A stretch of 64,000 bases of DNA from an uncultured Pelagibacteraceae bacterium (GTDB lineage: Bacteria; Pseudomonadota; Alphaproteobacteria; Pelagibacterales; Pelagibacteraceae). A program made the position numbers and the translations under genes. The DNA is taken from the NCBI GenBank assembly GCA_902541315.1, contig CACBQF010000001.1, forward strand, positions 1 through 64,000. Direction: 5' to 3'. The notes beneath the pieces were generated by a model, which was given only the letters and a program-made list of their open reading frames with translations, made no database searches and was not told the origin of the DNA. Numbering within the stretch: the first letter of the stretch is position 1; every line of letters starts with the position of its first letter. Below, one piece after another: positions 9,465-64,000 of this stretch.

Positions 9465-9575
9465 TTACAGTAAGAATATTGCCATTAATACCAAAACACA
9501 TATAACAGCGACAGTACCCCACAGTACAAATTTTGTGAAGTTATTCCATGTATTTTTATGGTTTTCGTTATCCAT
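9465..9575 (-). CDS. Small single-TM protein resembling aa3-type cytochrome c oxidase subunit IV (36 aa)
   Basis: My translation: MDNENHKNTWNNFTKFVLWGTVAVICVLVLMAIFLL*; polar N-terminus plus one TM helix; missing from ORF track; lies between pntAA and rpmJ. Confidence 0.7.
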   Translation of the reverse strand: MDNENHKNTWNNFTKFVLWGTVAVICVLVLMAIFLL

Positions 9576-9580
9576 AAATA

Positions 9581-10607: not shown

Positions 10608-10723
10608 GCCTGGCAAAGTCCTACTCTTCCATGTCTTAAGACAAAGTACCATTGGCGCTGAAAGGCTTGACTTCCGAGTTCGGAATGGTATCGGGTATTA
10701 CACTTTCGCTATAATCACCAGGC
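10608..10723 (-). rRNA. rrf: 5S ribosomal RNA
   Basis: Reverse complement reads GCCTGGTGATTATAGCGAAAGTGTAATACCCGATACCATTCCGAACTCGGAAGTCAAGCC...TGGAAGAGTAGGACTTTGCCAGGC; terminal helix GCCTGG/CCAGGC. Confidence 0.96.
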
Positions 10724-42937: not shown

Positions 42938-43942
42938 CTTTGATAAATTAGCTTTAATTTTTAAAGCTAAATTTAAACTTTCAATGCTATTTTTGAGATC
43001 CGATATATTTTTGGTTTTTTTTAACTTAATTAAATTGAAGAAATATTTAATTTGATTTTCAAACATTTCATTACGAATAAATCTACCAAAATTTTTTTTA
43101 ACATTTTTATTTAATAAATAATCGTTTATAACCACTTCATTTTTATAATAATCCCAAAATAATGTTTTTTTTGTGCCAGTTATTAACATGTTTCTAATCG
43201 GTGGCCTTTGAAAAAAATCTAGTGTTAGGTTAACAGAAATATTATCTTTTTCAAAATTTATGAGACTATTAACATAATCTTCCACATCAATATTTAAATT
43301 GGAAAGCTTTCCTCCAAATGCATAAACTTTTTTTGGTTTACCAAAAAGGTATATGCAATAATCAAGTTCATGGATTTGAGAATTGATGACTCCTCCACCA
43401 AGTTTCTTTTGTGCCATTGTAGTTTTTTTATAATCCTCGTATTTATGATAATCTGGTAGAAATTCCCCATTATAAATATTGGCTCCACAAAGATTTCCAA
43501 GTTTACCTTTTTCTATTTGATTTTTTATGAAATTTAAACTTTTTAAAAAACGCATTTGATATCCAACCATAAATACTATCTTATTTTTAATTACAATTTT
43601 TTCTAATTTTTTTACATTTTTTGAATTATGGGATAGTGGCTTGTCTATAAATATATGAATTTTTTTTTTTGCAGCTGCTAATGCATACTTCATATGCATT
43701 GAGGTTGGATTGCATATAAAAATCACTTCAGGCCTCTCTAACAAGGCTTTTTCAAAATTTCTGAAAATTTTGATATTATATTTTTTATTCAAATTAAATC
43801 TTTGAACTCTGTTCTTATTGTCCAATGTAAGTTTTCTATTTAATTTTCTATATGCCAAAATTTCAAATTTTGGAAAAAATTTTTTTAAATTTCTAAGATG
43901 TCTTTGTCCAATCGACCCCAAGCCGACAAAAAGAATTTTCAT
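42929..43942 (-). CDS. Gfo/Idh/MocA family oxidoreductase
   Basis: ILFVGLGSIGQRHLRNLKK, FICNPTSMHMKYALAAAKKKIHIFIDKPLSHN, GGGVINSQIHELDYCIYLFGKPKKVYAFGGKLSNL. Confidence 0.9.
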   Translation of the reverse strand: MKILFVGLGSIGQRHLRNLKKFFPKFEILAYRKLNRKLTLDNKNRVQRFNLNKKYNIKIFRNFEKALLERPEVIFICNPTSMHMKYALAAAKKKIHIFIDKPLSHNSKNVKKLEKIVIKNKIVFMVGYQMRFLKSLNFIKNQIEKGKLGNLCGANIYNGEFLPDYHKYEDYKKTTMAQKKLGGGVINSQIHELDYCIYLFGKPKKVYAFGGKLSNLNIDVEDYVNSLINFEKDNISVNLTLDFFQRPPIRNMLITGTKKTLFWDYYKNEVVINDYLLNKNVKKNFGRFIRNEMFENQIKYFFNLIKLKKTKNISDLKNSIESLNLALKIKANLSKLN

Positions 43943-44697
43943 TTTTTTATATAGTATTTCTTTATTGTATCTTTGTTACTGTCATTAACATTTTCTGCAT
44001 AAGTAAAATCTTCTTCAGTATCTATATCAATTTTTTTAGGTGTCAGGAATGGTAATATTCTATGTCCATATATTAATTTTTTATTAATGTTTTGAAGAAG
44101 AAAGTTTGTTTTAAGAATATCTACATATCCATTTGGTTCATAAGTAGCTCTAAACAATTGACTTGGTTTGTTAAATAAATCATGCTCATTTTTTTTCATA
44201 TTTACATCACAATAAAAATTGTTCCTAATTCTAAATTGTTTTTCTGGTGGATGATCTGCTTTATGAGATGATCTTAGAGAAGTTGATTTTTTATTAAGTT
44301 TTAAAAATTTTAATGCTTTATTAATATCTAAAATAGATCTAAAAGGTGTAGTTGGTCTTAACTGAATAATAAACTCAGGTAATTTTTCAAACTCTTTTTG
44401 AATAAATTTTAAAAAATGAGATATATATTCATAATCTCCTGATGTTTTTAGAGAAATTTTTTTAGGTCTTAAAAATGGTACTAAAGCACCATATTTCTCT
44501 GAAATCTTTGCAATTTTTTTATTATCGGTTGAAACAAATGTTTTTGAAATTTTTTTGTTATTAGTTGATACCAATACAGAATATAAAAATAGTTCTATAT
44601 TAGATAATTTTTTTAAATTTTTATTTTTTATTCTAAATGATTTTCCTTTAGCTGGAATAATTGACCAGACTAAATTTTTAACAATTTTATTTTTCAC
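43939..44697 (-). CDS. Cytidylyltransferase family (NeuA/PseF-like) with variant N-terminal motif
   Basis: SIIPAKGKSFRIKNKNLKKL, VSTDNKKIAKISEKYGALVPFLRP, IIQLRPTTPFRSILDINKAL. Confidence 0.85.
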   Translation of the reverse strand: MKNKIVKNLVWSIIPAKGKSFRIKNKNLKKLSNIELFLYSVLVSTNNKKISKTFVSTDNKKIAKISEKYGALVPFLRPKKISLKTSGDYEYISHFLKFIQKEFEKLPEFIIQLRPTTPFRSILDINKALKFLKLNKKSTSLRSSHKADHPPEKQFRIRNNFYCDVNMKKNEHDLFNKPSQLFRATYEPNGYVDILKTNFLLQNINKKLIYGHRILPFLTPKKIDIDTEEDFTYAENVNDSNKDTIKKYYIKK

Positions 44698-44703
44698 AAT
44701 ATA

Positions 44704-45546
44704 TTAAATTTTTAGATGCGCTCTTAACTTTTTTGCTATTAAAACTTCCTCATCAATTATTTTTCCTATAGATGGTTTGCCTATTGCCAATTGGATTTTT
44801 CTTGATGACTCAACCAAATTCATAAATCCCGATGGTGCTAAAGATGCAGATTGATCTGAGCCATACATTGCTCTATCCAGAGTTATATGTCTTTCTAATG
44901 ATGAGATGCCAAGTGCTGCTGCTCCCAATGATACAGCTACACCAGACTCATGACCACTATAACCTACATCACATTTATATTTTTTTTTTAATTCCGTAAT
45001 AGTTGACAAGTTAGCATCTTTTGGATCCATCGGATAAGTAGAAACACAGTGCATCAATTCAAATGGACAATTCATCTCTCTAAAAATTTTCACAGCATCG
45101 TCTATATCTTTTTCAGTAGACATACCTGTTGAAATAAATGTATGTTTTTTTTGTTTAGCTACAGCTTTTAAAAAATTTTTATCTATTATCATTGCTGAAG
45201 CAATTTTGTTAAAATTTAGATTAAATTTCTCAAGAAATTTGAGGCTATTAATATCCCAAGCTGATGCGAACCAAGTAATTTCATTTTGTTTGCAATAATT
45301 ATCAATAATATTGTATTCCTCATAATTAAATTCCAAACCTAATTTTTGGTCTCTTTGCGTTTTTCCCCAGGGACTCTCTCGGGGCGAGTCGAGCAATTTT
45401 TTTGAGTAAACTAATTCAATATCTCTTTTCTGGAATTTTACTGCATCTGCACCAGCTTTTTTAGCTAAATCTATCAATTTTTTAGCGATGTTAATATCTC
45501 CGTTATGATTAATACCTATCTCTCCTATTATAAAAATTCTTTTCAC
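44704..45546 (-). CDS. N-acetylneuraminate synthase-like aldolase, short form without SAF domain
   Basis: IIGEIGINHNGDINIAKKLIDLAKKAGADAVKFQKRD, ISTGMSTEKDID, MHCVSTYP, VGYSGHESG; ends right after the barrel (280 aa). Confidence 0.9.
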   Translation of the reverse strand: MKRIFIIGEIGINHNGDINIAKKLIDLAKKAGADAVKFQKRDIELVYSKKLLDSPRESPWGKTQRDQKLGLEFNYEEYNIIDNYCKQNEITWFASAWDINSLKFLEKFNLNFNKIASAMIIDKNFLKAVAKQKKHTFISTGMSTEKDIDDAVKIFREMNCPFELMHCVSTYPMDPKDANLSTITELKKKYKCDVGYSGHESGVAVSLGAAALGISSLERHITLDRAMYGSDQSASLAPSGFMNLVESSRKIQLAIGKPSIGKIIDEEVLIAKKLRAHLKI

Positions 45547-45550: not shown

Positions 45551-46429
45551 TTAATTAATCTCTTTTTTTAATTTAGTTCTTGTCGGCAACTCGATATCAA
45601 GAATTTCTTTATTCTTGAATTTTAAGGCTAAATTTAATGACTTTAAATTTCTGTTAAGCCTTCTCATTCCATCTGGTTCTAAACTCGCAGCATGATCTGT
45701 ACCTTTCCATGTTCTATCTAGAGTAAAATGTCTCTCAATATAATTTGCTCCTAATGTATAAGCAGCCATGTCAAACGAAATACCTTTGTGATGGCCAGAA
45801 AACCCTATATCCTTTACTTGATCTGTTATTTTATATTTTTCTATTAATCTCTTTATTTCTAATAAGCACACATCATTAGTTTCAACTGGATAAGCTGAAG
45901 TGCACGCATACAAAATCAAATCATTATTTCTGTTATGTTTATTAAAAAAATTAACAATTTTTTCTTCCTCATTTATTGTTGTCATTCCAAGAGATAAATG
46001 AATTTCTCCATTAAAGTTTTTACAAATATAGTTTAATATATCAAAATTTAAATTTGTTGCAGAACCAATTTTAATTTTTTTTGGATTAATATTACAGATT
46101 TCTTTTGTTGATTTAATATCCCAAACAGAACTAAAATATTCTATACCTATATTTTCACATTCTTTTTTTAAGATTTTATGTTTTTCAATATCGAATTCTA
46201 AAAATTCTCTATGTTCACCATAAGATTTTCCATATGAATTTTGTTCGACTGGATGCGGTAAATTATATTCTTCTTCTGATAGTAACGTTTTAGGATCTCT
46301 TTTTTGAAATTTAATACATGGCACATCACAAAATTCTTTTGCTACTTTTATAAACTGTTTTGCAATTTCTATTTCACCCTTATGATTACATCCTACCTCT
46401 GCAATTAATGTTGGTTTTTTAAAATTCAT
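45551..46429 (-). CDS. N-acetylneuraminate synthase-like aldolase, short form without SAF domain (second tandem copy)
   Basis: LIAEVGCNHKGEIEIAKQFIKVAK, CIKFQKRDPKTLL, LSLGMTTINEEE, IGFSGHHKGISFDMAAYTLGANYIERHFTLDRTWKGTDHAASLEPDGM. Confidence 0.9.
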   Translation of the reverse strand: MNFKKPTLIAEVGCNHKGEIEIAKQFIKVAKEFCDVPCIKFQKRDPKTLLSEEEYNLPHPVEQNSYGKSYGEHREFLEFDIEKHKILKKECENIGIEYFSSVWDIKSTKEICNINPKKIKIGSATNLNFDILNYICKNFNGEIHLSLGMTTINEEEKIVNFFNKHNRNNDLILYACTSAYPVETNDVCLLEIKRLIEKYKITDQVKDIGFSGHHKGISFDMAAYTLGANYIERHFTLDRTWKGTDHAASLEPDGMRRLNRNLKSLNLALKFKNKEILDIELPTRTKLKKEIN

Positions 46430-48825: not shown

Positions 48826-49563
48826 TCAAAACTTTTTGCTCTTGTTTTTTATTTTTCTTACTACTTCATACAAATTTTTTTTTGTATCAACAGCAATTGA
48901 TTTATCTGACATTCTGATCATTTTTACATCATGACCAATTTCTAAAAATCTTAGTAATTCACAATCTTCTATTTTTTCAATTGGTGTTTTTTTCTTTATT
49001 GACTTGAATGCAATTAATGACTTGTATGGCATTGAATAAATGCAAACTTGCCTCCACGCTTTTACAAATTTTTGATTTTTTGTAGTCGGTATAGGTGCTC
49101 TTGACTGATATAAAAGTCTTCCATCTTTTCTAAAAACAACTTTAGGAATATTTCCAGATTTAAAATGCTTCATGCTCTTAATTTCAGTATAGCCATTTAT
49201 AATTTCTTTAGGATATTTTTTTGCAAATTTGAGTAATTTAACTAAATCAGCTGGATTACATAGGGGTTCGTCACCTTGTACATTTAAATAGAAATCAGCC
49301 TTAAATTTTTTTGCAACTTCAGCAACTCTATCAGTACCAGTCAGACATTTTTTTGATGTCATAACAACTTTAATTTTATTTTTTTCACATACCTTTTTAA
49401 TTCTTTCATCATCCGTTGCTACTAGAATTTTTGATTTAGGAATCGCTTTACAACATTGGTTATAGGTTCTAACGATCATCGGAATACCACAAATATTTAC
49501 AATTGGTTTACCAGGAAATCTTTTTGATTTATATCTAGCAGGAATCACTAAATAATATTTCAT
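48826..49563 (-). CDS. kdsB: 3-deoxy-manno-octulosonate cytidylyltransferase-like
   Basis: VIPARYKSKRFPGKPIVNICGIPMIVRTY, TGTDRVAEVA, LNVQGDEPL. Confidence 0.92.
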   Translation of the reverse strand: MKYYLVIPARYKSKRFPGKPIVNICGIPMIVRTYNQCCKAIPKSKILVATDDERIKKVCEKNKIKVVMTSKKCLTGTDRVAEVAKKFKADFYLNVQGDEPLCNPADLVKLLKFAKKYPKEIINGYTEIKSMKHFKSGNIPKVVFRKDGRLLYQSRAPIPTTKNQKFVKAWRQVCIYSMPYKSLIAFKSIKKKTPIEKIEDCELLRFLEIGHDVKMIRMSDKSIAVDTKKNLYEVVRKIKNKSKKF

Positions 49564-49572: not shown

Positions 49573-51192
49573 CTATAAAGCATAAACTGATGTTGATTTT
49601 ATTTTATATTTAGTTGGAGTAATACTCTCAACTTCAGCTTTTTTTTCTAAAGAATTATATAAAGAAAATAATTCATCCATTTCCATTCTTTTGGGATCAT
49701 CTGTTTCATAACCGTCAAACCCTGCAACATAAATTTTTTTCGCTCTACCACTGTTCGCAATTGCCAAAGCATAAGAAATTGCTAAAGTATTTGGTATCAC
49801 TGCAGAAGACTTCAGAAATTTAAATGAATTGCTTTTTACATTTATACCAAAGTCTAATTTTTTAACTTTCTTAAATTTTTCTTTAATTAATTTTGATAAT
49901 CTCTGATAGGGAAGAATTAATTTTTGAGGGAAATATTTAAATGATTTGTGATCTGTTAACAATCGTAGTGTATTACTAACTGCTCTTGTATCAATTAATT
50001 TTGAATTAATTGAATTTTGAGTATTCAGGGCAATAACAAACGGTTTATATCTTTTAATAAAACTCTCTAAAGCTATCTTGTGAGACTCGACTCCACCGCC
50101 TGATCCAAGAATAAGAACATCTTTATTTTTTATATGCTTTGATGGTTGATAGGTTCCTTTATCTTTTCCAAGATGATAGTCTTTATATATATTCAGTAAA
50201 TCATTGCTAAATTTTTTTCCTCCTTCTGTCTTTAAACTATTAATAACTGAAAGTATTTGTTCTGAACTAAAAGATTTAGTAGCGAGCATTCCTTGAATAA
50301 AACTAGGATGTATTCCGTGTAGTCCCGAAAGATAATAATAAAAATTGGATCCCCATTCATATTTTTTTTTCATAGGAATAAAATCTTTAGAAATTAGATT
50401 TATGAGTTTATTATAATTGATTTTTCTCTTAAATTTTTTTTCTAACTCTAATACAAGATTCTCTGTTTTCACATTACCTGGCCCACGACCCATTCCAAGA
50501 ACAGTGGAGTCAATATAGTTTACACCATTATTTAGTGCGATCATGGTATTTTCCATTGCCATATTCATATTATCATGTGCATGAATTCCTAGGCTTCCAA
50601 TCCAATTTTTTTTAAAATTTTTTACTATTTGCTGGGTGTGTGTGCCATTTAAACTTCCCATGCTATCTGCAAAATATAAAATATCCATATCATATTTTTT
50701 CATTAGAACACAAAAATTTTTAATCTCATTATTTGTCCTATCAGAGATTTGCATAAGATTTATTGCTACTTTATATCCTAACTTTTTAATTTTTGATGCA
50801 ACTGGCATTACTTTTTTTATTTCAGAAAAATGACAAGCGACTCTAACCAACTTAACTTTACTAAATTTAGATTCTTTAAATATTTGATTTAATAAATTAT
50901 TTTTTTTTCTCAAAAATTCCCTTTTTATCAACTCGGAACCATTGATCATTACTGCAATTTTTAAGCTTTTGGGTATCTTTAAATTGTTTAAAAAACTATC
51001 TGAAGTATAAGCGCATGGACCTTTGAAATTTTTTTTTTCTAATGATCTAAAACCAATTTCAACAAAATCAATATTTATATCTGACATTACTTTTAAATAT
51101 CTATTGATTAAATCAATATTAAAATTCCAATTGTTATAGTATCCACCGTCTCTTAGGGTACAGTCTAGTATGTTATATTTTTTTTGCCTCAT
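49573..51192 (-). CDS. HMG-CoA lyase/4-hydroxy-2-oxovalerate aldolase-like enzyme with uncharacterised C-terminal domain
   Basis: YNILDCTLRDGGYYNNWNF, VEIGFRS, YFADSMGSLNGTHT, LGIHAHDNMNMAMENTMIALNNGVNYIDSTVLGMGRGPGNVKTE; C-terminal KDVLILGSGGGVESHK...IYVAGFDGYETDD. Confidence 0.9.
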   Translation of the reverse strand: MRQKKYNILDCTLRDGGYYNNWNFNIDLINRYLKVMSDINIDFVEIGFRSLEKKNFKGPCAYTSDSFLNNLKIPKSLKIAVMINGSELIKREFLRKKNNLLNQIFKESKFSKVKLVRVACHFSEIKKVMPVASKIKKLGYKVAINLMQISDRTNNEIKNFCVLMKKYDMDILYFADSMGSLNGTHTQQIVKNFKKNWIGSLGIHAHDNMNMAMENTMIALNNGVNYIDSTVLGMGRGPGNVKTENLVLELEKKFKRKINYNKLINLISKDFIPMKKKYEWGSNFYYYLSGLHGIHPSFIQGMLATKSFSSEQILSVINSLKTEGGKKFSNDLLNIYKDYHLGKDKGTYQPSKHIKNKDVLILGSGGGVESHKIALESFIKRYKPFVIALNTQNSINSKLIDTRAVSNTLRLLTDHKSFKYFPQKLILPYQRLSKLIKEKFKKVKKLDFGINVKSNSFKFLKSSAVIPNTLAISYALAIANSGRAKKIYVAGFDGYETDDPKRMEMDELFSLYNSLEKKAEVESITPTKYKIKSTSVYAL

Positions 51193-53004: not shown

Positions 53005-53550
53005 TTATACATTTTTATTACTTAAAAAATCCACTGCCATTAAAATCCATACGTGATGAGTCATTTCGACAATATTGTACTCTCTCGAATTTACCCAAAA
53101 ATTTAATTTACCCAATTTTTTAAGAGGATTATTTTTTTTAAAACCACTAAAAGTCACTAATTTAATTTTTTTTTTATTACAATACTTAGCTGCATTAACA
53201 ATATTTTCTGATTTTCCGCTGCTACTTATAAGCACAACCAAATCACCTTTATCAGCATGAGACTTTAGTGCTTCAGTAATCCAATTATTATAACCATAAT
53301 CATTTGCATAACATGTTATTAAATCTGCTTCGTTAAAATTGATTGACCTTATTTTACAAACTTTTGAAAAATCAACACTCACATGAGAAGCCATTGCAGC
53401 GCTACCCCCATTACCAGCAAAAACAACTTTTTTATTATTTTTTTTTATTTTCTTTAATAAATCTATAAACAGTTCAAAGTTAGTTGTTGGAAGTTTTGAA
53501 TTAATTAGATTTAACTTTTTAAAATAATTATTAACAAATTTTTCAACCAT
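53005..53550 (-). CDS. SIS-domain sugar isomerase, GmhA-like
   Basis: VVFAGNGGSAAMASHVSVDFSK, LVVLISSSGKSENIVNAAKYC; next to heptose-activation genes. Confidence 0.85.
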   Translation of the reverse strand: MVEKFVNNYFKKLNLINSKLPTTNFELFIDLLKKIKKNNKKVVFAGNGGSAAMASHVSVDFSKVCKIRSINFNEADLITCYANDYGYNNWITEALKSHADKGDLVVLISSSGKSENIVNAAKYCNKKKIKLVTFSGFKKNNPLKKLGKLNFWVNSREYNIVEMTHHVWILMAVDFLSNKNV

Positions 53551-53554
53551 TAAA

Positions 53555-54781
53555 TTAATATCTCGAATTCAATTTGTTTCTGATTGATTTTGAGAGGTTA
53601 TATATAATTGTATCAGATTTAATTGTATTTTTCAAAGTATTTAACTTATTTTTACTGCCTAGATAAATACATTTAGTATTCGCGTTATAGCTAGCTAAAA
53701 CATCCCTGGGATCGTCCCCAATATAAAATGTTTTATCGAGCAGTAATTTATATCTTTCTGCTGCTCTTAGAAAATTTCCTGGATTAGGTTTTCTATAAAA
53801 ACTTTTTGATTCAAAATGATCGGTCGATATAAAGTAATCCATTAAAGTTATGTTGTGTGTTTTGAGATAACTTTTAATATATCTATTTATCTTAATTAAA
53901 TCTGAAATTTTGACATCTTTTGTAGAAACTCCTGCTTGATTTGAAATACATATTAGTCTGATTTTTGGATATTTTTTTAATATTGATATAATTTTATAAT
54001 TCATTTTTAATTCCTCTAATCTAGTTACATATCTATTTTTTGAATTGACCTTATTAATTACTCCATCTCTATCAATTAGTATTACATTTTTCTTCTTAAA
54101 ATAATGTCTAGTCTCCTTAAGCCTTTTTATATCAGAAATACTTAGATATTTACTGAAAGTCTTTAGGGCTGTTAATTTTTTTTCAATAAATTTGTTTCTA
54201 AAATAAGAATTAAAATTAACATTATTTGAAGCAAGATATTTTATAATTTTCTTACTACAAATCATGTATCCAATCTCAACAAATTTAAAATGTTTTTTTC
54301 TTTTTAAATGGTAACGGACATTATAATCTTTGGTGAAGTTAATGTTGCCTAATTTTTTTCTTGCTACTGTTAGGGTAATCAAACTTTTAGTTTTTTTAAA
54401 AAATTTATAGTTTTTATTGAGGTTTAATGAACAATAATTATCAGAGTACATTAATAAAAAATCTTCATTTATTTTATTTTTAATTGTATATAATCTTAAT
54501 CCTGACTCAACATTAGGGGGATTATAAGAATACTCAATTTTCAAACCTAATTTTGTCCCAAATTTGAAGTATTTAATAATTTGATCTTTTTTGAAGCCAA
54601 CAAGTAAAAAAACTTTTTTGATACCCTGCTCCTTTAGTTGAACTAATAAATGCTCTAAGAAAGGTTTTTTTTGGACAGAGACCATTGGTTTAGGTTTATT
54701 TTTAGTGATTGATTTTAATCTTGTTCCATAACCTCCACAAAAGATAACGCAAGTCTTAATCATAAATATTAATAAATTCAA
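53555..54781 (-). CDS. Fusion of HddC-like nucleotidyltransferase and GmhB-like HAD phosphatase
   Basis: CVIFCGGYGTRLKSITKNKPKPMVSVQKKPFLEHLL (NTase) followed by VILIDRDGVINKVNSKNRYV...CISNQAGVS...RKPNPGNFLRAAERY...FYIGDDPRDVLASYNA (HAD). Confidence 0.92.
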   Translation of the reverse strand: MNLLIFMIKTCVIFCGGYGTRLKSITKNKPKPMVSVQKKPFLEHLLVQLKEQGIKKVFLLVGFKKDQIIKYFKFGTKLGLKIEYSYNPPNVESGLRLYTIKNKINEDFLLMYSDNYCSLNLNKNYKFFKKTKSLITLTVARKKLGNINFTKDYNVRYHLKRKKHFKFVEIGYMICSKKIIKYLASNNVNFNSYFRNKFIEKKLTALKTFSKYLSISDIKRLKETRHYFKKKNVILIDRDGVINKVNSKNRYVTRLEELKMNYKIISILKKYPKIRLICISNQAGVSTKDVKISDLIKINRYIKSYLKTHNITLMDYFISTDHFESKSFYRKPNPGNFLRAAERYKLLLDKTFYIGDDPRDVLASYNANTKCIYLGSKNKLNTLKNTIKSDTIIYNLSKSIRNKLNSRY

Positions 54782-54912
54782 TTTTAAATTTATACATTTT
54801 ATCAGAAAGTTTTTTACTAATTGATAATTTATATAAAGATAAAATTTAATAGTTTATTTTTTTTTTTTAAGTTATAAACAGTGTTTAATCAAATAAAATA
54901 ATATTAAAAATC

Positions 54913-55896
54913 GTGAAAAAAAAAAATATTCTTATTACTGGTGCCAATGGATTTGTTGGATCGCATTTCTTAGATTTTTTAATTAAAAAATATCCAAATA
55001 ATAACGTTTGGTTAAGTAAAAGATGGCATTTGTCTAATCTTGATAATATAAAAACTCATCTCAAAAAAGTAAATTTAATAGACTGTGACATCACCGACCC
55101 TGTTTCAACAAGACAAATGATTTTAAAAATAAAACCAAGTCATATATTCCATTTTGCAGCTGAAAGTTTTGTTTCACCGTCATGGGAAAATCCAAACAGA
55201 TACATGAGTGTGAACTACAATGGTACTTTAAATTTACTTGATGCCATAAAATTTTTTAAACTTAAAACAAAAATTTTAATACCAGGTTCTGGTGAGGAAT
55301 ATGGTGAAATTTATAAGAACGAGGTTCCTATTACTCCTGAGACAGTTCTGAGGCCAGTTAACCCTTATGCAGTAAGCAAAATTGCACAGGATTTAATAGG
55401 TTATGTTTATTACAAATCATATGGAGTAAATGTAATAAGAACCAGGTCATTTAATCATGAAGGTCCTCGAAGACAAAATGTATTCGGTATACCATGGTAT
55501 GCATATCAAATCGCCAAAATTGAGAAAAATTTGCAAAAACCAATAATTGAAGTTGGTGGAATTGATGATGAGAGAAATTTTACTCATGTTAAAGATATTG
55601 TAAAAGGTTATTGGTTAGCAATGACAAAATGTAAACCTGGAGAACTATATTTGTTAGGATCTGAAGATAAAAAAAATATTTCAACATTCAGAAATATTAT
55701 AAAGATGCTTTTAAAACTTTCTTATAAGAAAAATATAAAATTTAAAACTAATCTCAAATACGTGAGACCAACGCGGGTCCCTCTTTTAATTGGTGATACA
55801 AAAAAATTTAGAAAATTAACGAATTGGAAACCTAAAATTTCATTAAATGAAATTCTTGAAGATACACTCAATTATTGGCGCAATGAGCTAAAGTAA
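54913..55896 (+). CDS. GMD-like NDP-sugar 4,6-dehydratase (GTG start)
   Basis: ILITGANGFVGSHFLDFL, FHFAAESFVSPSWENP, GSGEEYGEI...PVNPYAVSKIAQDLIGY, RSFNHEGPRR. Confidence 0.9.
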   Translation: MKKKNILITGANGFVGSHFLDFLIKKYPNNNVWLSKRWHLSNLDNIKTHLKKVNLIDCDITDPVSTRQMILKIKPSHIFHFAAESFVSPSWENPNRYMSVNYNGTLNLLDAIKFFKLKTKILIPGSGEEYGEIYKNEVPITPETVLRPVNPYAVSKIAQDLIGYVYYKSYGVNVIRTRSFNHEGPRRQNVFGIPWYAYQIAKIEKNLQKPIIEVGGIDDERNFTHVKDIVKGYWLAMTKCKPGELYLLGSEDKKNISTFRNIIKMLLKLSYKKNIKFKTNLKYVRPTRVPLLIGDTKKFRKLTNWKPKISLNEILEDTLNYWRNELK

Positions 55897-55904
55897 ATTT
55901 TTAA

Positions 55905-56891
55905 ATGCAAGCAAGAAAAATTGTAATAACAAGAACCCCACTTCGAATTAGCTTTATGGGTGGAGGTACTGACTTTAAGTATTTTTATAAGAATAATGTT
56001 GCTGGAATAGTAAGCTCAACAATTAATAGATTTGTTTATGTTACTGTTAAGAGACATCCAAGATTTTTTTTTGAAAACTATAGACTTAATTATTCAAAAT
56101 CTGAGACCGCTTTAAAAATTAGTGATATTAAAAACGATATAATTAGAGAATGTATTAAATTTTCTGGTATTAAAGAAAAACTATATATATCAACTATTTC
56201 AGACTTTCCCTCAAATACAGGGCTAGGTGGATCGAGTGCATTTGTGGTTGGTTTATTAAAAGCATTATTTGAATTACAGAATAAATCTATTTCAAAAGAT
56301 AAATTATTAGAATATGCAATAAAAATTGAAATAGATATTCTTAAGAGTCCAATAGGTATTCAAGATCATATATCTGCTGTTTACGGTGGTTTAAACTATA
56401 TTAAGATTCATAAAAACAATATAAAAATAAATGAAATAAAGATGAACAAGTATAAAATTAATTTTTTTTTTAAAAAAATAAATTTATTCTGGACAGGAGG
56501 AACTAGAGAAGCAAATAAAATTTTGTCAGATCAAAAAAAAAATTTAAAAAAAAATATAAAAAATTTAAAAGTATTGCAAAACAAAAGTGTACTTTTTTAC
56601 TCTGAATTAAAAAAAAAAAAACACAATTTAAATAAAATCTGCGAAATGATTGATGAAAGTTGGAAATTAAAAAGTAAGTTTTCAAATAAAATAGTAAATA
56701 ACAAAATTTTAAATGTAATTTCTTTGTTAAAAAAAAATAACTTTCATGGACTTAAAATTTTAGGTGCAGGTGGTGGGGGTTTCGTACTTGCATTTAATAA
56801 AAAAAAAAATTTAAATAAAACCTTAAAAAATTTAAAAAATATTTCAATAGAATATCAAAAAGTTGGGAGTGAAATTATATACAAAAAATAA
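55905..56891 (+). CDS. GHMP kinase, HddA-like (D-glycero-D-manno-heptose 7-phosphate kinase-type)
   Basis: ITRTPLRISFMGGGTDFKYFY, SDFPSNTGLGGSSAFVVGLLKAL, GIQDHISAVYGGLNYI, LGAGGGGFVLAF. Confidence 0.92.
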   Translation: MQARKIVITRTPLRISFMGGGTDFKYFYKNNVAGIVSSTINRFVYVTVKRHPRFFFENYRLNYSKSETALKISDIKNDIIRECIKFSGIKEKLYISTISDFPSNTGLGGSSAFVVGLLKALFELQNKSISKDKLLEYAIKIEIDILKSPIGIQDHISAVYGGLNYIKIHKNNIKINEIKMNKYKINFFFKKINLFWTGGTREANKILSDQKKNLKKNIKNLKVLQNKSVLFYSELKKKKHNLNKICEMIDESWKLKSKFSNKIVNNKILNVISLLKKNNFHGLKILGAGGGGFVLAFNKKKNLNKTLKNLKNISIEYQKVGSEIIYKK

Positions 56892-56893
56892 AT

Positions 56894-57424
56894 ATGAAAA
56901 TTTTAAAACAAAAAATTAAAGGTGTATTTTTAATAAAACCAAAATTATTTAGAGATAAAAGAGGTATCTTCAGAAGACATTTTTGTAAAAGTACATTCAA
57001 ACTTAACAAACTTTCACACAGTGTATTACAGTCGAATTTATCAGAAAATTTTTCTAAAGGAACTTTGAGAGGATTTCATTATCAAGAAACACCATATGGA
57101 GAAGATAAAACAATGTCGTGTATTTCGGGTGCAATTTACGATATTGTTTGTGATGTAAGGCCAAAATCTAAAACATATGGAAAGTGGATTGGATTTGAAA
57201 TTAATGATAAAAATAGATATTCAATCCACATCCCAAAAGGCTGTGCAAATGCATTTTTAACTTTAAAAAATAATACTGTTGTACATTATTATTGTTCACA
57301 AAATTACAAACCAAAAAAAGAAAAATGTATAAGGTTCAATGATCCATTTTTTGATTTTAAATGGCCTATTAAACCGAAAATTATTTCTGTAAAAGACAAA
57401 AACCACAAAAATTTCCAATTATGA
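56894..57424 (+). CDS. dTDP-4-dehydrorhamnose 3,5-epimerase-like cupin (RmlC family)
   Basis: FRDKRGIFRRHFCKSTF, QSNLSENFSKGTLRGFHYQ, GAIYDIVCDVRPKSKTYGKWIGFEI, IPKGCANAFLTL. Confidence 0.92.
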   Translation: MKILKQKIKGVFLIKPKLFRDKRGIFRRHFCKSTFKLNKLSHSVLQSNLSENFSKGTLRGFHYQETPYGEDKTMSCISGAIYDIVCDVRPKSKTYGKWIGFEINDKNRYSIHIPKGCANAFLTLKNNTVVHYYCSQNYKPKKEKCIRFNDPFFDFKWPIKPKIISVKDKNHKNFQL

Positions 57425-57431
57425 TATTTTT

Positions 57432-58247
57432 ATGAACATACTAATAGTTGGCGGAAGCGGTTTCATTGGACATCATTTAACAAAAAAAATTCATGACCTT
57501 AAATATAACTATTTATCCACTTACAGAACAAAAAAACCAAGTAAATTAAATTTTTTTAAATTAAATCTGAATAAATTTGAGAGTAAAAAGAATATAATTT
57601 CTAAATTTAAGCCAAATATAATAATTTATCTTGCTTGGAATGGTATACCAAATTATTCCAAAAAAAATTCAGAACATAACTTGTATATTTCAAAGAAATT
57701 TATAGATTTTATTAGTAAGTTAGACTCTATAAATAGAATAATCATATCTGGTAGTTGTTTTGAAAAAAAAAAAGATATTAATCTTAAATTTTTTGTAAAA
57801 GCTAAATTAGAACTTAAAAATTATATATATAAAAAATTCAAAAATAAAAAGGTTAAACAAATATGGGTAAGAATTTTTTATGTTTATGGAAAAGGTCAAA
57901 GAAAACTTTCTTTAATACCAACATTAATTCGAAAACTTAAAAAAGGTATTAACCCAGAAATCAAGAACCTTAATTCCTCAAACGATTTTATTTACATAAA
58001 AGATGTTGTAGATTTTTTTATTAAATGCATAAAACTAAAAACAAGTAAAAATATACTTGAATGTGGCTGCGGTAAATTATATTCCGTAAGTGAAGTTTGC
58101 CTAATTACAGAAAAGTTAATTCTAAATAAAATAAAATTTTTTAAAATTTCTAAGCAAGGACCTGTAAAAAAAGGTATGAAGGCTAGTGCTTATAATTGGT
58201 TTAAACCAAGATACAAACTTCAAAGGGCAATCAAAGAAATGCTTTAA
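57432..58247 (+). CDS. NAD-dependent epimerase/reductase (extended SDR)
   Basis: ILIVGGSGFIGHHLTKKI, IYLAWNG, SGSCFE, RIFYVYGKGQRKLSLIPTLI. Confidence 0.85.
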   Translation: MNILIVGGSGFIGHHLTKKIHDLKYNYLSTYRTKKPSKLNFFKLNLNKFESKKNIISKFKPNIIIYLAWNGIPNYSKKNSEHNLYISKKFIDFISKLDSINRIIISGSCFEKKKDINLKFFVKAKLELKNYIYKKFKNKKVKQIWVRIFYVYGKGQRKLSLIPTLIRKLKKGINPEIKNLNSSNDFIYIKDVVDFFIKCIKLKTSKNILECGCGKLYSVSEVCLITEKLILNKIKFFKISKQGPVKKGMKASAYNWFKPRYKLQRAIKEML

Positions 58248-58260: not shown

Positions 58261-59160
58261 TTATATTTTGTAAAAATTTTTAACAATTTTGAACTCTGAA
58301 AATGTATTTTTATTGTTTGTCTTGTGCTTATTATTTTTTAGAATTAAATTAAATTTTTTTTTTAAAAAACTTTTTCTCGGAAAAAAATCAAATTTTAAAT
58401 TACAAATATTTATAATTGAAAAAAAATTAAATTTCTGAGTTGGGGGATAATCTTTTGATATCATTAATAAAATTCTGAAAAAATTTTTAATTCTAAACCA
58501 AAGCGGATAATTATATAATATAGCTAGACCAACCTTGGTATTTGATTGTTGTCTCATATTATAAATCTTATCAGTGTAAGATATTTTTCCTAAAATTAAT
58601 GAATATAAAGTAAAAAATAGCTCATGATTTATCTCAAATTCAGTGAATGATAGTTTTTTAAGTTTTCTAATCATTTTTTTAAAGAAATTTGTTTTATAAA
58701 TACAATAAGTAAAAAAAATATTTTTTTTTTTGATAAAAATCTTTAAGTTATTAAATGCACCTTTATTAAAATCAATTGATGATGGTTTTCTTTTAAAAAA
58801 AATTTTTTTGTTTTTTAGATAAAAATTATAAGTTATTCCTCTACCTACATCGTAATCATCTTTATTCATTTTATCCAAAATTATACGAATATTCTTAGGG
58901 ATATAAAGGTCATCATCTGCCGCTAAGCAAACAAATCTCGTTTTTACTTTTTTTAACGCAAACTCAATTCTCTCTCTTCTATCTAATTTGGGTTTATGAA
59001 AGTAATTTTTTTTATCTTTAAAAAAAATATTTTTTTTATTTGTTCCATCAATTATTATGAAATTTTTTTCAATTTTATTTTTTTTATAGAATTTATATAA
59101 ATTTACTAAGTCATTTGATCTATTATAAGTAGGTAAAATAAATGTTAAATTCATAAACAT
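58261..59160 (-). CDS. Glycosyltransferase family 2, TIGR00180-like
   Basis: LTFILPTYNRSNDLVNLYKFY...HKPKLDRRERIEFALKKVKTRFVCLAADDDLYIP. Confidence 0.85.
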   Translation of the reverse strand: MFMNLTFILPTYNRSNDLVNLYKFYKKNKIEKNFIIIDGTNKKNIFFKDKKNYFHKPKLDRRERIEFALKKVKTRFVCLAADDDLYIPKNIRIILDKMNKDDYDVGRGITYNFYLKNKKIFFKRKPSSIDFNKGAFNNLKIFIKKKNIFFTYCIYKTNFFKKMIRKLKKLSFTEFEINHELFFTLYSLILGKISYTDKIYNMRQQSNTKVGLAILYNYPLWFRIKNFFRILLMISKDYPPTQKFNFFSIINICNLKFDFFPRKSFLKKKFNLILKNNKHKTNNKNTFSEFKIVKNFYKI

Positions 59161-59296: not shown

Positions 59297-60319
59297 TTAA
59301 AGTTTCATATAAGATTTAGCATCAGATCTGTCTAAGGATCCTTTATTATCCTCATCATTCCAAGTCCATCCTCTTTGGGCATTACTATAAAGAATTGTGC
59401 ATGTGCTGCACAAATCAATTTGATTTTTATTCTCCTCTAAATTTAATTTTCTTAATTTTTTATACGCAAGTGAATTGAATGCCTCTATTGGTGAAATTTC
59501 CTTAACATTACCCAATTCAAACTGACCCTCTAAAAAATCAGCAGGACATAAAGCAAGATTTCCATCTGCTAGAATACACAAAGATTCAAACACATAATGG
59601 CAGGGTTTTTTTTCTATGAACTCATCATATCTATTGCCTAACATTTTTTGCTTATTACCCTTATATCCACCCCAATTATGCTCAACATATGAATAAATAT
59701 CATCATTTTTTTGTGGATCTAATAGTTTTGACCAATATTCTTTAAATCCCTCATATTGGTGTCGATTGGAGTCTTGTAGAACAAACCTGAATATAAATCT
59801 TGTCTTATAGTTATTTTTGTCCCTTAACTTAATTATATTTTCAAAATTTCTAACGACTTTTTCATAATGAAGACCAACCCTTATTTTTGCATGTGTATCT
59901 GGATCAGTAGCATCAATACTTGCAATTATTGTGTCTATGCCTGCATCAAGCAAATCTTTACCCAAATTTTCATCTAATGCTTCACCGTTTGTAGCGATAG
60001 CAGTTCTTTTAAAATTTTTCTTTTTTGCATATTCTACTCTTTGGGCTAACCACTTATCAATGGTTGGTTCACCCAAACACCACAAATCAAATTTATTAAT
60101 TTGATCTGCATATGGTGACATCTGATCAACTATAGACTCATACAAATCCATCTTCATTACTCTTTTTTTTCTTGTAGTTGGATCATCTATAAAACACATT
60201 GTGCATTTAGCATTACACCCAAACACAGTTTCAATTGCTAATTCTGTAGGTATAATCTTGCCTTGTTGTGCAAGTTTCATCAAATTTTCTCTGTTATTTT
60301 TTGATAAATCGTATCCCAT
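59297..60319 (-). CDS. Radical SAM protein with SPASM-like C-terminus
   Basis: ETVFGCNAKCTMCFIDD (CxxxCxxC), IATNGEAL, C-terminal CILADGNLALCPAD...CSTCTILYSNAQRGWTW. Confidence 0.93.
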   Translation of the reverse strand: MGYDLSKNNRENLMKLAQQGKIIPTELAIETVFGCNAKCTMCFIDDPTTRKKRVMKMDLYESIVDQMSPYADQINKFDLWCLGEPTIDKWLAQRVEYAKKKNFKRTAIATNGEALDENLGKDLLDAGIDTIIASIDATDPDTHAKIRVGLHYEKVVRNFENIIKLRDKNNYKTRFIFRFVLQDSNRHQYEGFKEYWSKLLDPQKNDDIYSYVEHNWGGYKGNKQKMLGNRYDEFIEKKPCHYVFESLCILADGNLALCPADFLEGQFELGNVKEISPIEAFNSLAYKKLRKLNLEENKNQIDLCSTCTILYSNAQRGWTWNDEDNKGSLDRSDAKSYMKL

Positions 60320-60340
60320 TTAGTTAGTATAACTTATAAA

Positions 60341-61126
60341 TTATATTGATCTTATGTACGTAGTCTTACCCGGTATATAACACCTTGAATTTAAATTGTA
60401 AACTCTACATATAAGAGTAAATCTTATTTTTTGTGATCTATTAACTCCACTTTTATGTAATGTATTGAGAGTAAAAGCAACTACATCACCTTTTTTAGCA
60501 GGTACCTCTATAGATTTGAATTTTTGGATTATTCGATCTGGTATACCTAGTGATTTTGAAGTGAAAGGGTCCCTAGGATTTTTTTTTGTTAAATTTTTTT
60601 TGTATCTTTTAAATTGACTGCCGATACAAAAAAAACAAGATCCATTGTCGTAATCAACATCTTGTAAAGGTATCCACAGAGTGTAAGCATCTATATAGCT
60701 ATGATTAATTTCCTCAATTAAACTATCCTGATGCCAGTCAAGACTGTTTCTCTCATCAGCAGGTGGATCCATTCTTAAAAAACATGGATATATAATTAAA
60801 TTATCTGATGATATTTTTAATTTATTTTTAATTAAATTTAATATTTTTTTTCCAGTAAAAAACTTATAAATTAGTGCTGTATTTTGAATTACATCATAGA
60901 TCTTTCCAAACGCTACTTTATTTTTTTTTCTTAATTCTATAGCTTTAATATGAAACTGATCATTATTTAAGAAATTTTTACTATCAAATTTTTTGAATTC
61001 TTTCCCACCATATTTTTCAAACAAAGAAAGTATTATTTCTTGAATTGATTTAAAATCATTTTTAAATAAAACATTTCTAAATTTTTCAACTCCCTTAATT
61101 TTTAAAGAATTATTTATGTTTTTCAT
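60341..61126 (-). CDS. Phytanoyl-CoA dioxygenase family (Fe(II)/2OG) protein
   Basis: LDWHQDSLIEEINHSYIDAYTLWIPLQDVDYDNGSCFFCIGSQF...GDVVAFTLNTLHKSGVNRSQKIRFTLICRVYN. Confidence 0.9.
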   Translation of the reverse strand: MKNINNSLKIKGVEKFRNVLFKNDFKSIQEIILSLFEKYGGKEFKKFDSKNFLNNDQFHIKAIELRKKNKVAFGKIYDVIQNTALIYKFFTGKKILNLIKNKLKISSDNLIIYPCFLRMDPPADERNSLDWHQDSLIEEINHSYIDAYTLWIPLQDVDYDNGSCFFCIGSQFKRYKKNLTKKNPRDPFTSKSLGIPDRIIQKFKSIEVPAKKGDVVAFTLNTLHKSGVNRSQKIRFTLICRVYNLNSRCYIPGKTTYIRSI

Positions 61127-61626
61127 TTTAAAAATCCGTAATTTTTACAATCATCACTTATAATAATTTTACTCTTCTTATCAATAGGCCATTTGATTTT
61201 TAATTTGGGGTCTTGCCAATTAACCTTGAGACTATTTGTATCATTATAAATATTATTACACATTATGTGTATAAGGGATTTTTTATGTGAAACAGAACCA
61301 TGAAGATAATTCTTTGGTACGTAAAGTAATAGATTTGGATTTAACTTAATTTTGTAAGACTTAAGAAAATTTTTAGACTTTTTTTGCATGTTAACAATTA
61401 TCCAAGTTACCTTGCCATACAATAAAGTAATAAATTTTGACTCAGCAAATTTTCCTTGTTGCATATAAAGACCTCGAACAACATTTTTTTTTTTATAAAT
61501 GGAAAATAAATTTTCTTTCATAGTAAAATTTATCTTTTTCAGGCCTTTAATTTCTTTTTTGTTATAGTTTTTTAGCATACCACCTCTTTTATCCATTAGC
61601 TTTCTTATTTTAAAAAGTTTATGCAT
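61123..61626 (-). CDS. RmlC-like cupin (dTDP-4-dehydrorhamnose 3,5-epimerase-like)
   Basis: MKENLFSIYKKKNVVRGLYMQQGKFAESKFITLLYGKVTWIIVNMQ, LLYVPKNYLHGSVS. Confidence 0.8.
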   Translation of the reverse strand: MHKLFKIRKLMDKRGGMLKNYNKKEIKGLKKINFTMKENLFSIYKKKNVVRGLYMQQGKFAESKFITLLYGKVTWIIVNMQKKSKNFLKSYKIKLNPNLLLYVPKNYLHGSVSHKKSLIHIMCNNIYNDTNSLKVNWQDPKLKIKWPIDKKSKIIISDDCKNYGFLK

Positions 61627-61629
61627 TTT

Positions 61630-62343
61630 TTATTCCCCACCAGAAATAGATATTGTCTGACCATATATAAATTTTGACTTATCGCTGAGCAAAAATTTGA
61701 CTAGTGATGCGACATCGGTTGGTGATCCTGGTTTTTTTCCTGGAATTAATCCAATCCTTTTTCTAAATCTTTTTTTGTCGTAACCTTTAAGATTTTTTGT
61801 CATACCAGAGTTAATAACACCAGGTCTTATATTGTTAATTCTTATTTTAAATTTAGAATAATATTTTGACAAATTTTTGATCACTGCCTCAATTGCAGCT
61901 TTCGAACATAAGTAAGGTATATTTTTTTGTGATCCATTGAATGATATTGTATTTGAACTTAAGTTAACGATAGTTAAACTTTTATTATTTTTTATATTCC
62001 TTTCGATATTTTCTCTTAATATAATCAAATGAGATATTAAATTTATATCTATGTTATCTTTAATCTCATTTGTAGAAGTATTAAAAAATTCTTTATAGGG
62101 ATTAGCATTTCCAGCGCAATTAATTATGTAATCAAAATTCTTTATTTTAATTAAGATTTTTTTTATAGTTTTTTCTAATTGATTTAAATTTTTGAAGTTT
62201 ACTTTAAAGGAAAAAACATTCCTTTTATTAGAAATAATTTTTTTCTTATTGTAAAATAAAAAGAATTTATCTTCATTTGTGTAAATTTCTTTAAAAATTT
62301 CTTTACCAATTCCACCACTCGCACCTGTTATTAAATAATTCAT
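61630..62343 (-). CDS. Short-chain dehydrogenase/reductase
   Basis: YLITGASGGIGKEIFKEI, INCAGNANPY, YLCSKAAIEAVIKNLSKYYSKFKIRINNIRPGVI, ISGGE. Confidence 0.92.
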   Translation of the reverse strand: MNYLITGASGGIGKEIFKEIYTNEDKFFLFYNKKKIISNKRNVFSFKVNFKNLNQLEKTIKKILIKIKNFDYIINCAGNANPYKEFFNTSTNEIKDNIDINLISHLIILRENIERNIKNNKSLTIVNLSSNTISFNGSQKNIPYLCSKAAIEAVIKNLSKYYSKFKIRINNIRPGVINSGMTKNLKGYDKKRFRKRIGLIPGKKPGSPTDVASLVKFLLSDKSKFIYGQTISISGGE

Positions 62344-62350
62344 AAAATAA

Positions 62351-63253
62351 TTATAATTGATTTTTAAAATTTGGCATTAATTCATCCAAATTATCATTTG
62401 AATATTTTGTATATAAACTTACATTTTTTATTGTTCTTAAAACTTTGGTTTCCAACATGTAAGCATGTTTGTTTTTTGATTTTGATAAATCATAAATTTC
62501 CAAATTTTTTGTTAATCTTACGCTTTTAATGATTTCTGAAAGATCATTAAAATTAGGATTATTGATTATAAATATTTCAGAGTTGTAAATTTTTTTTGAA
62601 TTATTTTTTTTTTCTAAAAAATCGTAAACTGAAAAACCATAGAGAACAATTGTTTTTTTTTTATTTCCAAATTTATAAACTGAATAATCTGTATTTAATT
62701 TATTTGGTGTTAAATCAAATTTTTTATTAATATTTTTTTGACTAAAACATAACAGATTAAATCCAGATTTATTTAATAAGTATTTTAAATTATATTTAAT
62801 ATCTGAACTCATCAACATAAACCTGCAATTTATTTTTGAAATTGAAGCAAAATCACTTAGGCAATTTAATCTAGATTGTGGCCCTTCATTACCTGTATCA
62901 ACTATATATGTTATTATTGTAAATGATCCCTTTCTTTTTTGTAAAAGAAGAGAATTGTAAGAATTTACAATATGATCCAAACCTAGCAACAAAAAGTCTA
63001 ACTGTTTTGCAACATAAATTGCTCTACCATTTGATGCCATAATTCCTAAACCCATGCCAATTAGACTTGCCTCTGAATTTTGTGTGTTAAAGATTTTACA
63101 ATTTTTGATTTTATTGAAACCATTACATAATCCAGATACTTTTGAACCAGCCAAAATATTTTGACCATAGATTATAGTATCTTTTTTTACGTTCCTTACA
63201 AAGTTAGAGTTAAATGATTGCAGAATACTTTTATTTTTTTCTGAAAATTTCAT
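62351..63253 (-). CDS. E1-beta / transketolase C-terminal-like TPP enzyme subunit
   Basis: IIYGQNILAGSKVSGLCNGF, NTQNSEASLIGMGLGIMASNGRAIYVAKQLDFLLLGLDHIVNSYNSL. Confidence 0.8.
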   Translation of the reverse strand: MKFSEKNKSILQSFNSNFVRNVKKDTIIYGQNILAGSKVSGLCNGFNKIKNCKIFNTQNSEASLIGMGLGIMASNGRAIYVAKQLDFLLLGLDHIVNSYNSLLLQKRKGSFTIITYIVDTGNEGPQSRLNCLSDFASISKINCRFMLMSSDIKYNLKYLLNKSGFNLLCFSQKNINKKFDLTPNKLNTDYSVYKFGNKKKTIVLYGFSVYDFLEKKNNSKKIYNSEIFIINNPNFNDLSEIIKSVRLTKNLEIYDLSKSKNKHAYMLETKVLRTIKNVSLYTKYSNDNLDELMPNFKNQL

Positions 63254-63999
63254 TTATTTAAAATTTTAAATATGTTGTTATTATCAAATAGTCCATCTTT
63301 AATTGATATTTTGCCATGATGATATTTATTTACTTTTCCACTAATTTTATCCAATACTTTTCCCAATGTATTAACTTCAAACTCTAAAATTATTGGTTCA
63401 TTTTTTTCTCTACAATACTTTATTGCCTCTTCGTATTTTGAGATATTTTTTTTGATATCTTTTAAAGGAAAGAAATGGTGTCTAACATTTAAAGATTTTC
63501 CTAAATATTTTATATTTAACTTACATCTTCTCTCTGATTTTTTTGTGGACATTGACCAATCATTATCTTCTATAAGGTAAACAATGGGTAATTTTAAGGA
63601 TTTTGCGAGCATGATTGACTCGTAAAAAGTGCCTTCTTCAATAGCACCATCTCCAGCATTACAAATGACGATATTTTTTCCCTTTTTTGCTTTAAAACCA
63701 AATCCACAAGCGATTGAAAAATTATTTCCTAAAATACTAGAGCAATATGAAATTTCTTTACATTTTGGATCAAAATAATTCATGGACCCAGAATATTTAT
63801 AAACATTTTTTTTTTTAAAAAAATTAGAATAATAAGCTTCCGGTTTTTTTGAAAAAATTGAGGTAAAATGAATATTTCTGTGAGAAAGAATCAAAATATC
63901 ATTTTTCTTAAAAAATACTTTTACTAAAGACGACACAAATTCATGACCTAAAGCTAAATGAATTGGTACATAAAAATTTTTTTTTAGCATCTTATTGTT
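63250..63999 (-). CDS. E1-alpha / transketolase N-terminal-like TPP enzyme subunit (frame open to window edge, possibly 5'-partial)
   Basis: GNNFSIACGFGFKAKK, TPP motif GDGAIEEGTFYESIMLAKSLKLPIVYLIEDNDWSMST; ORF track start is 63990. Confidence 0.85.
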   Translation of the reverse strand, partial: NNKMLKKNFYVPIHLALGHEFVSSLVKVFFKKNDILILSHRNIHFTSIFSKKPEAYYSNFFKKKNVYKYSGSMNYFDPKCKEISYCSSILGNNFSIACGFGFKAKKGKNIVICNAGDGAIEEGTFYESIMLAKSLKLPIVYLIEDNDWSMSTKKSERRCKLNIKYLGKSLNVRHHFFPLKDIKKNISKYEEAIKYCREKNEPIILEFEVNTLGKVLDKISGKVNKYHHGKISIKDGLFDNNNIFKILNK

Positions 64000-64000
64000 C

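Follow-up and report, generated by a model that had tools for sequence, protein, structure and literature searches.

The locus described here raises the question of what a split E1-type thiamine diphosphate (ThDP) enzyme does among surface-sugar genes with no E2 partner beside it. It lies in the window, a stretch of 64,000 nucleotides (positions 1 to 64,000 of contig CACBQF010000001.1) from an uncultured SAR11 (Pelagibacteraceae) bacterium, and consists of six minus-strand open reading frames (ORFs) running from 59297 to past 64000. ORF calls and Pfam matches bore out the tight operon described in the initial annotation. The E1-alpha-like and E1-beta-like genes overlap by 4 nt, gaps of 7 and 3 nt separate E1-beta from a short-chain dehydrogenase/reductase (SDR) gene and the SDR from an RmlC-like gene, the latter overlaps a PhyH gene by 4 nt, and 21 nt lie between PhyH and a radical S-adenosylmethionine (SAM) gene. 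The reading favored here, at a probability of roughly 0.5, is that the two E1-like subunits act together as an acyloin ligase without E2, of the aKADH2 type, branching a guanosine diphosphate (GDP)-4-keto-6-deoxyheptose with a two-carbon (C2) unit, and that the SDR reduces the branch.

The E1-alpha-like ThDP subunit (274 aa; 63250 to 64000, minus strand) has its 5' end beyond the window; on the full contig its start was placed at about 64065 to 64074, outside the window edge (L005, 5251 to 6075). It matched Pfam E1_dh (1.9e-23), and its profile matched human pyruvate dehydrogenase (PDH) E1-alpha with an E value of 2e-23. The E1-beta-like ThDP subunit (62351 to 63253, minus strand) had no Pfam or NCBIfam match and was assigned from profile and fold. 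A five-member profile placed it with the Thermus 2-oxoacid dehydrogenase beta subunit (1.3e-13), and the top PDB matches of its AlphaFold model, of moderate confidence (pLDDT 72), were all E1-beta (E value, 1.9e-11).

The residues that serve ThDP catalysis are retained, namely GDG and the Mg-binding Asn of the alpha subunit, which upholds the earlier statement that the TPP motif is intact, and the catalytic Glu61 of the beta subunit. The His within the motif AHxPGxKV of E1-beta enzymes is replaced by Ser (Ser137 in the window) in all five close members. In the alpha subunit, GSMH has become GSMN or GCMN among the close members (GSMN in the window), and the loop His of YRxxGH is lost in four of the five, including the window, and retained in L028. 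These histidines are retained in a canonical pair at L059, which adjoins an E2, and in the island E1 pairs of the common type. In canonical enzymes the active-site His of the beta subunit (Bst His128) and that of the alpha subunit serve in lipoyl acylation. The title of PDB entry 1olx names His291-alpha and His146-beta' of human branched-chain 2-oxoacid dehydrogenase (BCKDH) as involved in reductive acylation; these were matched to the window residues by columns of our own alignment. Such substitutions are consistent with an enzyme whose acyl group is not handed on to lipoate.

In each of the four clusters compared (the window and loci L048, L056, and L082), the gene neighborhood likewise speaks against a dehydrogenase complex, as no E2 was found in any of them. 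The initial annotation had reported no E2 or lipoyl gene nearby and had named E2/E3 genes just beyond the window as the sign of an ordinary dehydrogenase. Extension past 64000 yielded a methyltransferase and an NAD-epimerase and no E2 or E3 gene in the next 33 kb. Lipoyl domains occur in the assembly only at C1:169.7 kb, C1:172.7 kb, and C2:142.8 kb; the nearest on the window's contig is about 105 kb off, and the one on C2 adjoins 2-oxoglutarate dehydrogenase. The window also holds the only PDH-type E1_dh match of the assembly, the other two being the E1 of 2-oxoglutarate dehydrogenase on C2 and a weak match to part of a 637-aa frame that is probably DXS. Since the assembly (1.03 Mb, AT-rich) is 84% complete, absence of an E2 elsewhere in the genome is not proven. 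In the same genome, an ORF of 1012 aa at locus L093 (6913 to 9951) has a lipoyl domain at its N terminus and overlaps a second lipoyl (E2-like) ORF.

A likely source of the acceptor sugar lies close by, in a block (53005 to 58247) whose genes resemble those of a GDP-(6-deoxy)heptose pathway. The initial annotation had missed this block, taking the GDP-heptose-like genes as outside the system; with it, the sugar is most likely a GDP-heptose. On the minus strand are a GmhA-like sedoheptulose-7-phosphate isomerase (53005 to 53550; best NCBIfam match gmhA, 65.7 bits against a cut-off of 209; 62% orthologue in L048) and an HddC-like guanylyltransferase fused to a GmhB-like phosphatase (53555 to 54781; best relevant matches HddC, 81.7 bits against 300; GmhB, 58.8 bits, below its cut-off). 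The plus strand carries a GDP-sugar 4,6-dehydratase-like gene (GMD; 54913 to 55896) with S-x-E and YxxxK present, also below the equivalog cut-off; an HddA-like heptose-7-phosphate kinase of the GHMP family (55905 to 56891; best NCBIfam match HddA, 118.8 bits against 600); an RmlC epimerase with its His intact (56894 to 57424; RGFHYQ; NCBIfam rmlC, 161.3 bits, cut-off 155.75); and an extended SDR resembling C4-reductases/epimerases (57432 to 58247; 39% orthologue in L048). The best functional matches of each heptose-pathway kind thus stand together in one block, and because those other than RmlC score below equivalog cut-offs, "heptose" is read from their combination. The Campylobacter jejuni pathway leads from sedoheptulose-7-phosphate to GDP-heptose and then through a 4,6-dehydratase, C3/C5-epimerases, and C4-reductases, with GDP-6-deoxy-4-keto-heptose as a characterized intermediate (PMC10680097). 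GmhA, HddA, HddC, GmhB, a dehydratase, an RmlC-type epimerase, and a reductase are kinds common to that GDP-6-deoxyheptose pathway and the window; unlike the window, C. jejuni has no ThDP enzyme among the approximately 20 heptose enzymes listed (PMC10680097).

The two gene sets are combined in other genomes as well. In the SAR11 single cell AG-912-P01 (L048), heptose genes and E1 operon genes are interleaved at one 9.7-kb contig end, which holds methyltransferase, RmlC-like, HddC, GMD, HddA, SDR, a second epimerase (EPI2), a second RmlC, GmhA, NAD-epimerase (EPI), E1-alpha, and E1-beta genes. L056, from a small proteobacterial class, and L082, from another alphaproteobacterial family, each hold a single cluster with SDR, EPI, RmlC-like, E1-alpha, E1-beta, HddC-GmhB, GMD, cupin, HddA, and EPI2-like genes. 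The HddC-GmhB fusion is thus shared with L056 and L082, while HddC of L048 stands without the GmhB part. The operon SDR has a 45% orthologue in L048 and homologues in L056 and L082. The expectation that the six operon genes travel together therefore held for the E1 pair, the SDR, and the RmlC-like gene, found in all four clusters, but not for PhyH, and the radical SAM gene is shared only by the window and L056.

In quick trees made without bootstrap and containing some long branches, the GMD and HddA proteins of the window, L048, L056, and L082 each formed an exclusive clade (SH-aLRT, 100). The E1-alpha clade of the same four reached 100 once L028 was included, as did an E1-beta clade of the window, L056, L082, and L028, the open-ended E1-beta of L048 having been left out; the EPI clade had a value of 92. 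A split between window plus L048 and L056 plus L082 was repeated in the HddA, E1-alpha, and EPI trees. L028 is a looser relative, as its GMD and HddA fall outside the clades despite the related E1 pair.

The cassette is rare. A close E1-beta was found in 1/399 genomes of the phylum, in 1/48 of the class of G361 (the same genome), in 1/385 of the class besides the window's own, and in none of 369 gammaproteobacterial genomes; among 297 SAR11 genomes there was one strong match besides the window, plus L048. A phage or plasmid origin was rejected, as searches of phages, plasmids, and IMG/VR with the window protein as the query returned no relative of E1-beta.

A second and much commoner E1-alpha/beta family, with the alpha motif MRCPVHLSIGQEA, was observed at L029-L046, L083-L089, and the plasmid loci L116-L118, in polysaccharide islands that belong to SAR11, to other proteobacteria, and to a Solidesulfovibrio plasmid. 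Its genes are often accompanied by DegT aminotransferase, kinase-nucleotidyltransferase, NAD-epimerase, radical SAM, and NUDIX genes, and no pair stood beside an E2 in the stretches read. Half-size E1-like pairs were also seen at L028 (13711 to 14834; 195-199 aa) and at L047 (9006 to 10147; 178-181 aa). The position of the L047 pair, directly between GmhA-like and HddA-like genes, suggests a minimal ThDP enzyme in heptose metabolism.

From gene content, co-inheritance, fold, the ThDP catalytic residues kept, and the lipoyl-transfer His lost, we infer the substrate, donor, branch position, order of steps, and product of a possible pathway. The GMD-like enzyme would yield a 4-keto-6-deoxy sugar, and the acceptor would be GDP-6-deoxy-4-keto-heptose. 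E1-alpha/beta would decarboxylate a 2-oxoacid, most likely pyruvate, and the two-carbon carbanion would add to the ketone to give a C-acetyl-branched, nine-carbon GDP-sugar. The SDR (61630 to 62343, minus strand; Pfam adh_short_C2, 1.1e-32) is proposed to be the reductase of the branch carbonyl, like the paulomycin ketoreductase. The extra epimerase and the RmlC-like proteins may set the stereochemistry; the methyltransferase, PhyH, and radical SAM proteins may be strain-specific decorations; and the finished sugar would enter the surface polysaccharide encoded in hypervariable region 2 (HVR2). The initial annotation had envisaged an undescribed route to a modified sugar or lipid. The modified sugar is retained in the form of a ThDP carboligase/SDR/RmlC-like set acting on a nucleotide sugar, but the chemistry is already described (AviB1/B2, KbDH-alpha/beta), and no evidence points to a lipid.

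Several observations weigh against this pathway. None of GmhA, HddA, HddC, GmhB, and the dehydratase reaches its NCBIfam equivalog cut-off, and these are divergent homologues; GmhA is also missing from the clusters of L056 and L082. The SDRs split into two groups and form no single clade, and the close E1 pairs found number only five. The commoner E1 pairs of other islands may do something different. Furthermore, the likeness of the window pair to AviB and KbDH is one of arrangement and description.

Four other explanations were considered. It is unlikely that the pair transfers the same C2 unit to a ketosugar already linked to a lipid or polymer, or to a different position such as C3, leaving the nucleotide-stage sugar unbranched. 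Two-carbon addition has been proposed to follow glycosyl transfer in paulomycin and avilamycin (PMC4425429), and aKADH2 branches are placed at C3 or C4 (PMC12247030); a linked acceptor, however, accords poorly with the pair being interleaved with activated-sugar genes, not glycosyltransferases, in four genomes. A sugar other than a heptose, either a GDP-mannose-derived hexose or another GHMP-kinase-derived sugar, would leave the branching chemistry unchanged. This is quite unlikely given that GmhA-like, HddA-like, and HddC-GmhB-like genes are jointly present in the window, as they are in L048 apart from the GmhB fusion, although the subthreshold heptose enzymes would allow it and the C. jejuni GDP-heptose 4,6-dehydratase accepts GDP-mannose too (PMC7949155).

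It is distinctly improbable that the pair is a split transketolase-like enzyme acting upstream, providing an unusual ketose phosphate for GmhA/HddA and leading, for example, to a GDP-octose. The L047 pair between GmhA and HddA would suit such a role, true split transketolases are present in SAR11 islands as well, and the beta model also matches the split-gene transketolase 6yaj. Yet E1-alpha matches E1_dh rather than Transketolase_N (Pfam found only E1_dh, TPP_enzyme_C, and DXP_synthase_N in the N-terminal subunit), both structure and profile place the pair closest to 2-oxoacid dehydrogenase E1, GmhA is missing from the L056 and L082 clusters, and the operon partners are nucleotide-sugar-type enzymes. 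An ordinary 2-oxoacid dehydrogenase E1 with a remote E2 is hardly credible, since the E1 fold and motifs and the lipoyl-bearing genes elsewhere in the genome are outweighed by a gene context empty of E2 in four clusters, a nearest lipoyl domain about 105 kb away on the contig, the lost lipoyl-acylation His, and a sporadic presence only in variable sugar islands, and it was rejected.

The remaining operon proteins differ in how closely they follow the E1 pair. The RmlC-like cupin (61123 to 61626, minus strand; dTDP_sugar_isom, 6.5e-28) retains Lys64 and has Tyr for the catalytic His (RGLYMQ), so that the RGxH motif of 3,5-epimerases is absent; the L048 copy also lacks the His (RGFYAQ), and those of L056 and L082 retain it. 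In C. jejuni, His67 mutants of MlghB and DdahB still carry out C3 epimerization of the heptose substrate (PMC7949155), and for this reason the RmlC-like protein may still be a C3-epimerase. The PhyH-type Fe/2-oxoglutarate oxygenase (60341 to 61126, minus strand; Pfam PhyH, 8.2e-14) is accessory to the conserved core: L056 has none, and that of L082 is different (BLAST E value, 2e-4) and not a clear orthologue. Its membership in the NCBIfam "sporadic carbohydrate cluster" (SpoChoClust_2, TIGR04324) was rejected at 31.2 bits against a cut-off of 150, and the phrase did not occur in the literature searched.

The radical SAM protein (59297 to 60319, minus strand; Radical_SAM, 7.4e-16; SPASM, 1.3e-9), also accessory, has a four-Cys SPASM/twitch-like C terminus and a poor predicted structure (pLDDT 48). 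The L056 copy is 45% identical and adjoins E1-beta. Its nearest solved structure is BtrN (profile, 5.6e-9), a 2-deoxy-scyllo-inosamine dehydrogenase whose four C-terminal cysteines are similarly spaced. Among NCBIfam models, metalloenzyme-maturase models are closer than BtrN (88.7 bits, below the cut-off of 380). Widening the cassette through this protein was rejected, as its relatives in five other genomes lie at other sugar loci without close E1 pairs alongside; some of them adjoin DegT aminotransferases, as seen for the approximately 34% relatives at L113 (8816 to 9817) and L114 (9342 to 10301). Within the small class to which G361 belongs, this family is common.

The operon continues beyond the window with a class I methyltransferase having a Cys-rich N terminus (window-equivalent 64049 to 64867), which overlaps E1-alpha, and the NAD-epimerase EPI (window-equivalent 64827 to 65708), which overlaps the methyltransferase. 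EPI may be more than an epimerase, as it retains a dehydratase-like S/T-x-E-W motif. The downstream neighbor is a minus-strand glycosyltransferase (58261 to 59160; NCBIfam TIGR04440, 79.4 bits, cut-off 70).

Its position between 5S and 23S rRNA genes and its surface-sugar genes identify the locus as HVR2, the surface-polysaccharide island of SAR11. Rfam placed the left border at the 5S rRNA gene (10608 to 10722, minus strand) and the right border at the 23S rRNA gene (approximately 69364 to 72116), the start of a 23S-tRNA-tRNA-16S array. The same location and surface-polysaccharide content are given for SAR11 HVR2 (PMC2217521). The HVR2 of HTCC1062 has tktN/tktC and acetolactate-synthase-type genes, and no E1-type cassette was found in the portions of its gene table consulted (PMC2217521). 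Other genes of the island encode an O-antigen ligase, glycosyltransferases, and a DegT aminotransferase. Three NeuB-type synthases (35609 to 36652, 44704 to 45546, and 45551 to 46429, the latter two in tandem) and three CMP-sugar synthetase-like proteins (36655 to 37377, 43939 to 44697, and 48826 to 49563) suggest that several nonulosonic or similar acids are made. A 539-aa protein with an N-terminal HMGL-like aldolase domain (49573 to 51192) adjoins a CMP-sugar synthetase and an ABC exporter, and a carbamoyltransferase (Carbam_trans_N and _C) lies at 37455 to 39173. An Rfam pntA small RNA (9518 to 9579; 67 bits) was detected close to the 5S rRNA gene, immediately beyond the island.

SAR11 is one of the most abundant bacterial groups in the ocean, and its cell-surface variation and phage exposure are believed to be determined by HVR2. 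A wider proposal, advanced tentatively, is that an E2-less E1-alpha/beta builds a C2-branched, nine-carbon GDP-heptose derivative, an unreported sugar, for Gram-negative surface polysaccharide, including that of SAR11, and that its genes form a mobile cassette shared by SAR11 and distant proteobacteria. If true, this would be the first surface-polysaccharide use of a split E1-type enzyme found described. A conserved, transferable branched-heptose cassette would bring a further kind of sugar to the bacterial surface, would widen the range of split E1-type C-C ligases beyond antibiotics to include polysaccharides, and would be a new enzyme source for tertiary alcohols. The likely acceptor, GDP-6-deoxy-4-keto-heptose, can already be made enzymatically, which opens the proposal to direct testing in vitro.

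Among known systems, the pyruvate and branched-chain 2-oxoacid dehydrogenase E1 enzymes have the fold, ThDP motif, and catalytic Glu in common with the window pair, which differs in the missing E2, beta Ser137, and GSMN for GSMH. YerE and ErwE (yersiniose and erwiniose) are alike in being ThDP carboligases that branch a nucleotide-linked 4-ketosugar for lipopolysaccharide (LPS), but they are one-chain enzymes of the separate decarboxylase superfamily and use a CDP-dideoxyhexose acceptor. YerE, the model offered by the initial annotation, therefore belongs to the wrong superfamily for this pair of chains with E1-type domains, and the true precedent is the split E1-type C2-branching enzymes of actinobacteria. 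For Gram-negative LPS sugars, a 2025 review gives only one-chain YerE-like enzymes and no E1-type pairs (PMC12247030), and in the literature searched, which included few subscription papers, no split E1-type C2 branching was found described outside actinobacterial antibiotics. A tblastn search of plasmids for characterized actinobacterial aKADH2 returned only uncharacterized pairs. One E2-less pair on the Streptomyces griseofuscus plasmid pSGRIFU1 (L115, 10989 to 13035) lies in a cluster that also has genes for an acyl carrier, a ketosynthase, and an ScbR-type regulator.

The actinobacterial enzymes include AviB1/AviB2 (avilamycin) and Pau11/Pau12 (paulomycin), which are split, E2-less, and add a C2 branch to a ketosugar (PMC4425429), and EvdU5/EvdS3 (everninomicin), likewise split E1-type C2 branchers of a ketosugar (PMC10338323). 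KbDH-alpha/beta (kibdelomycin) is active in vitro with pyruvate and cyclic ketones (PMC12247030). Their ketosugars come from 4,6-dehydratases or related enzymes, and a ketoreductase often follows (PMC4425429, PMC10338323, PMC12247030). The window pair shares with the aKADH2 enzymes adjacent alpha and beta subunits, the lack of a dedicated E2/E3, GDG and the catalytic Glu, and a setting among deoxysugar genes that include dehydratase and ketoreductase types, the GMD-like dehydratase and SDR of the four clusters being assigned by homology only. Whereas the aKADH2 examples come from actinobacterial antibiotics, the pair described here stands in a Gram-negative surface-polysaccharide island among GDP-heptose-type genes.

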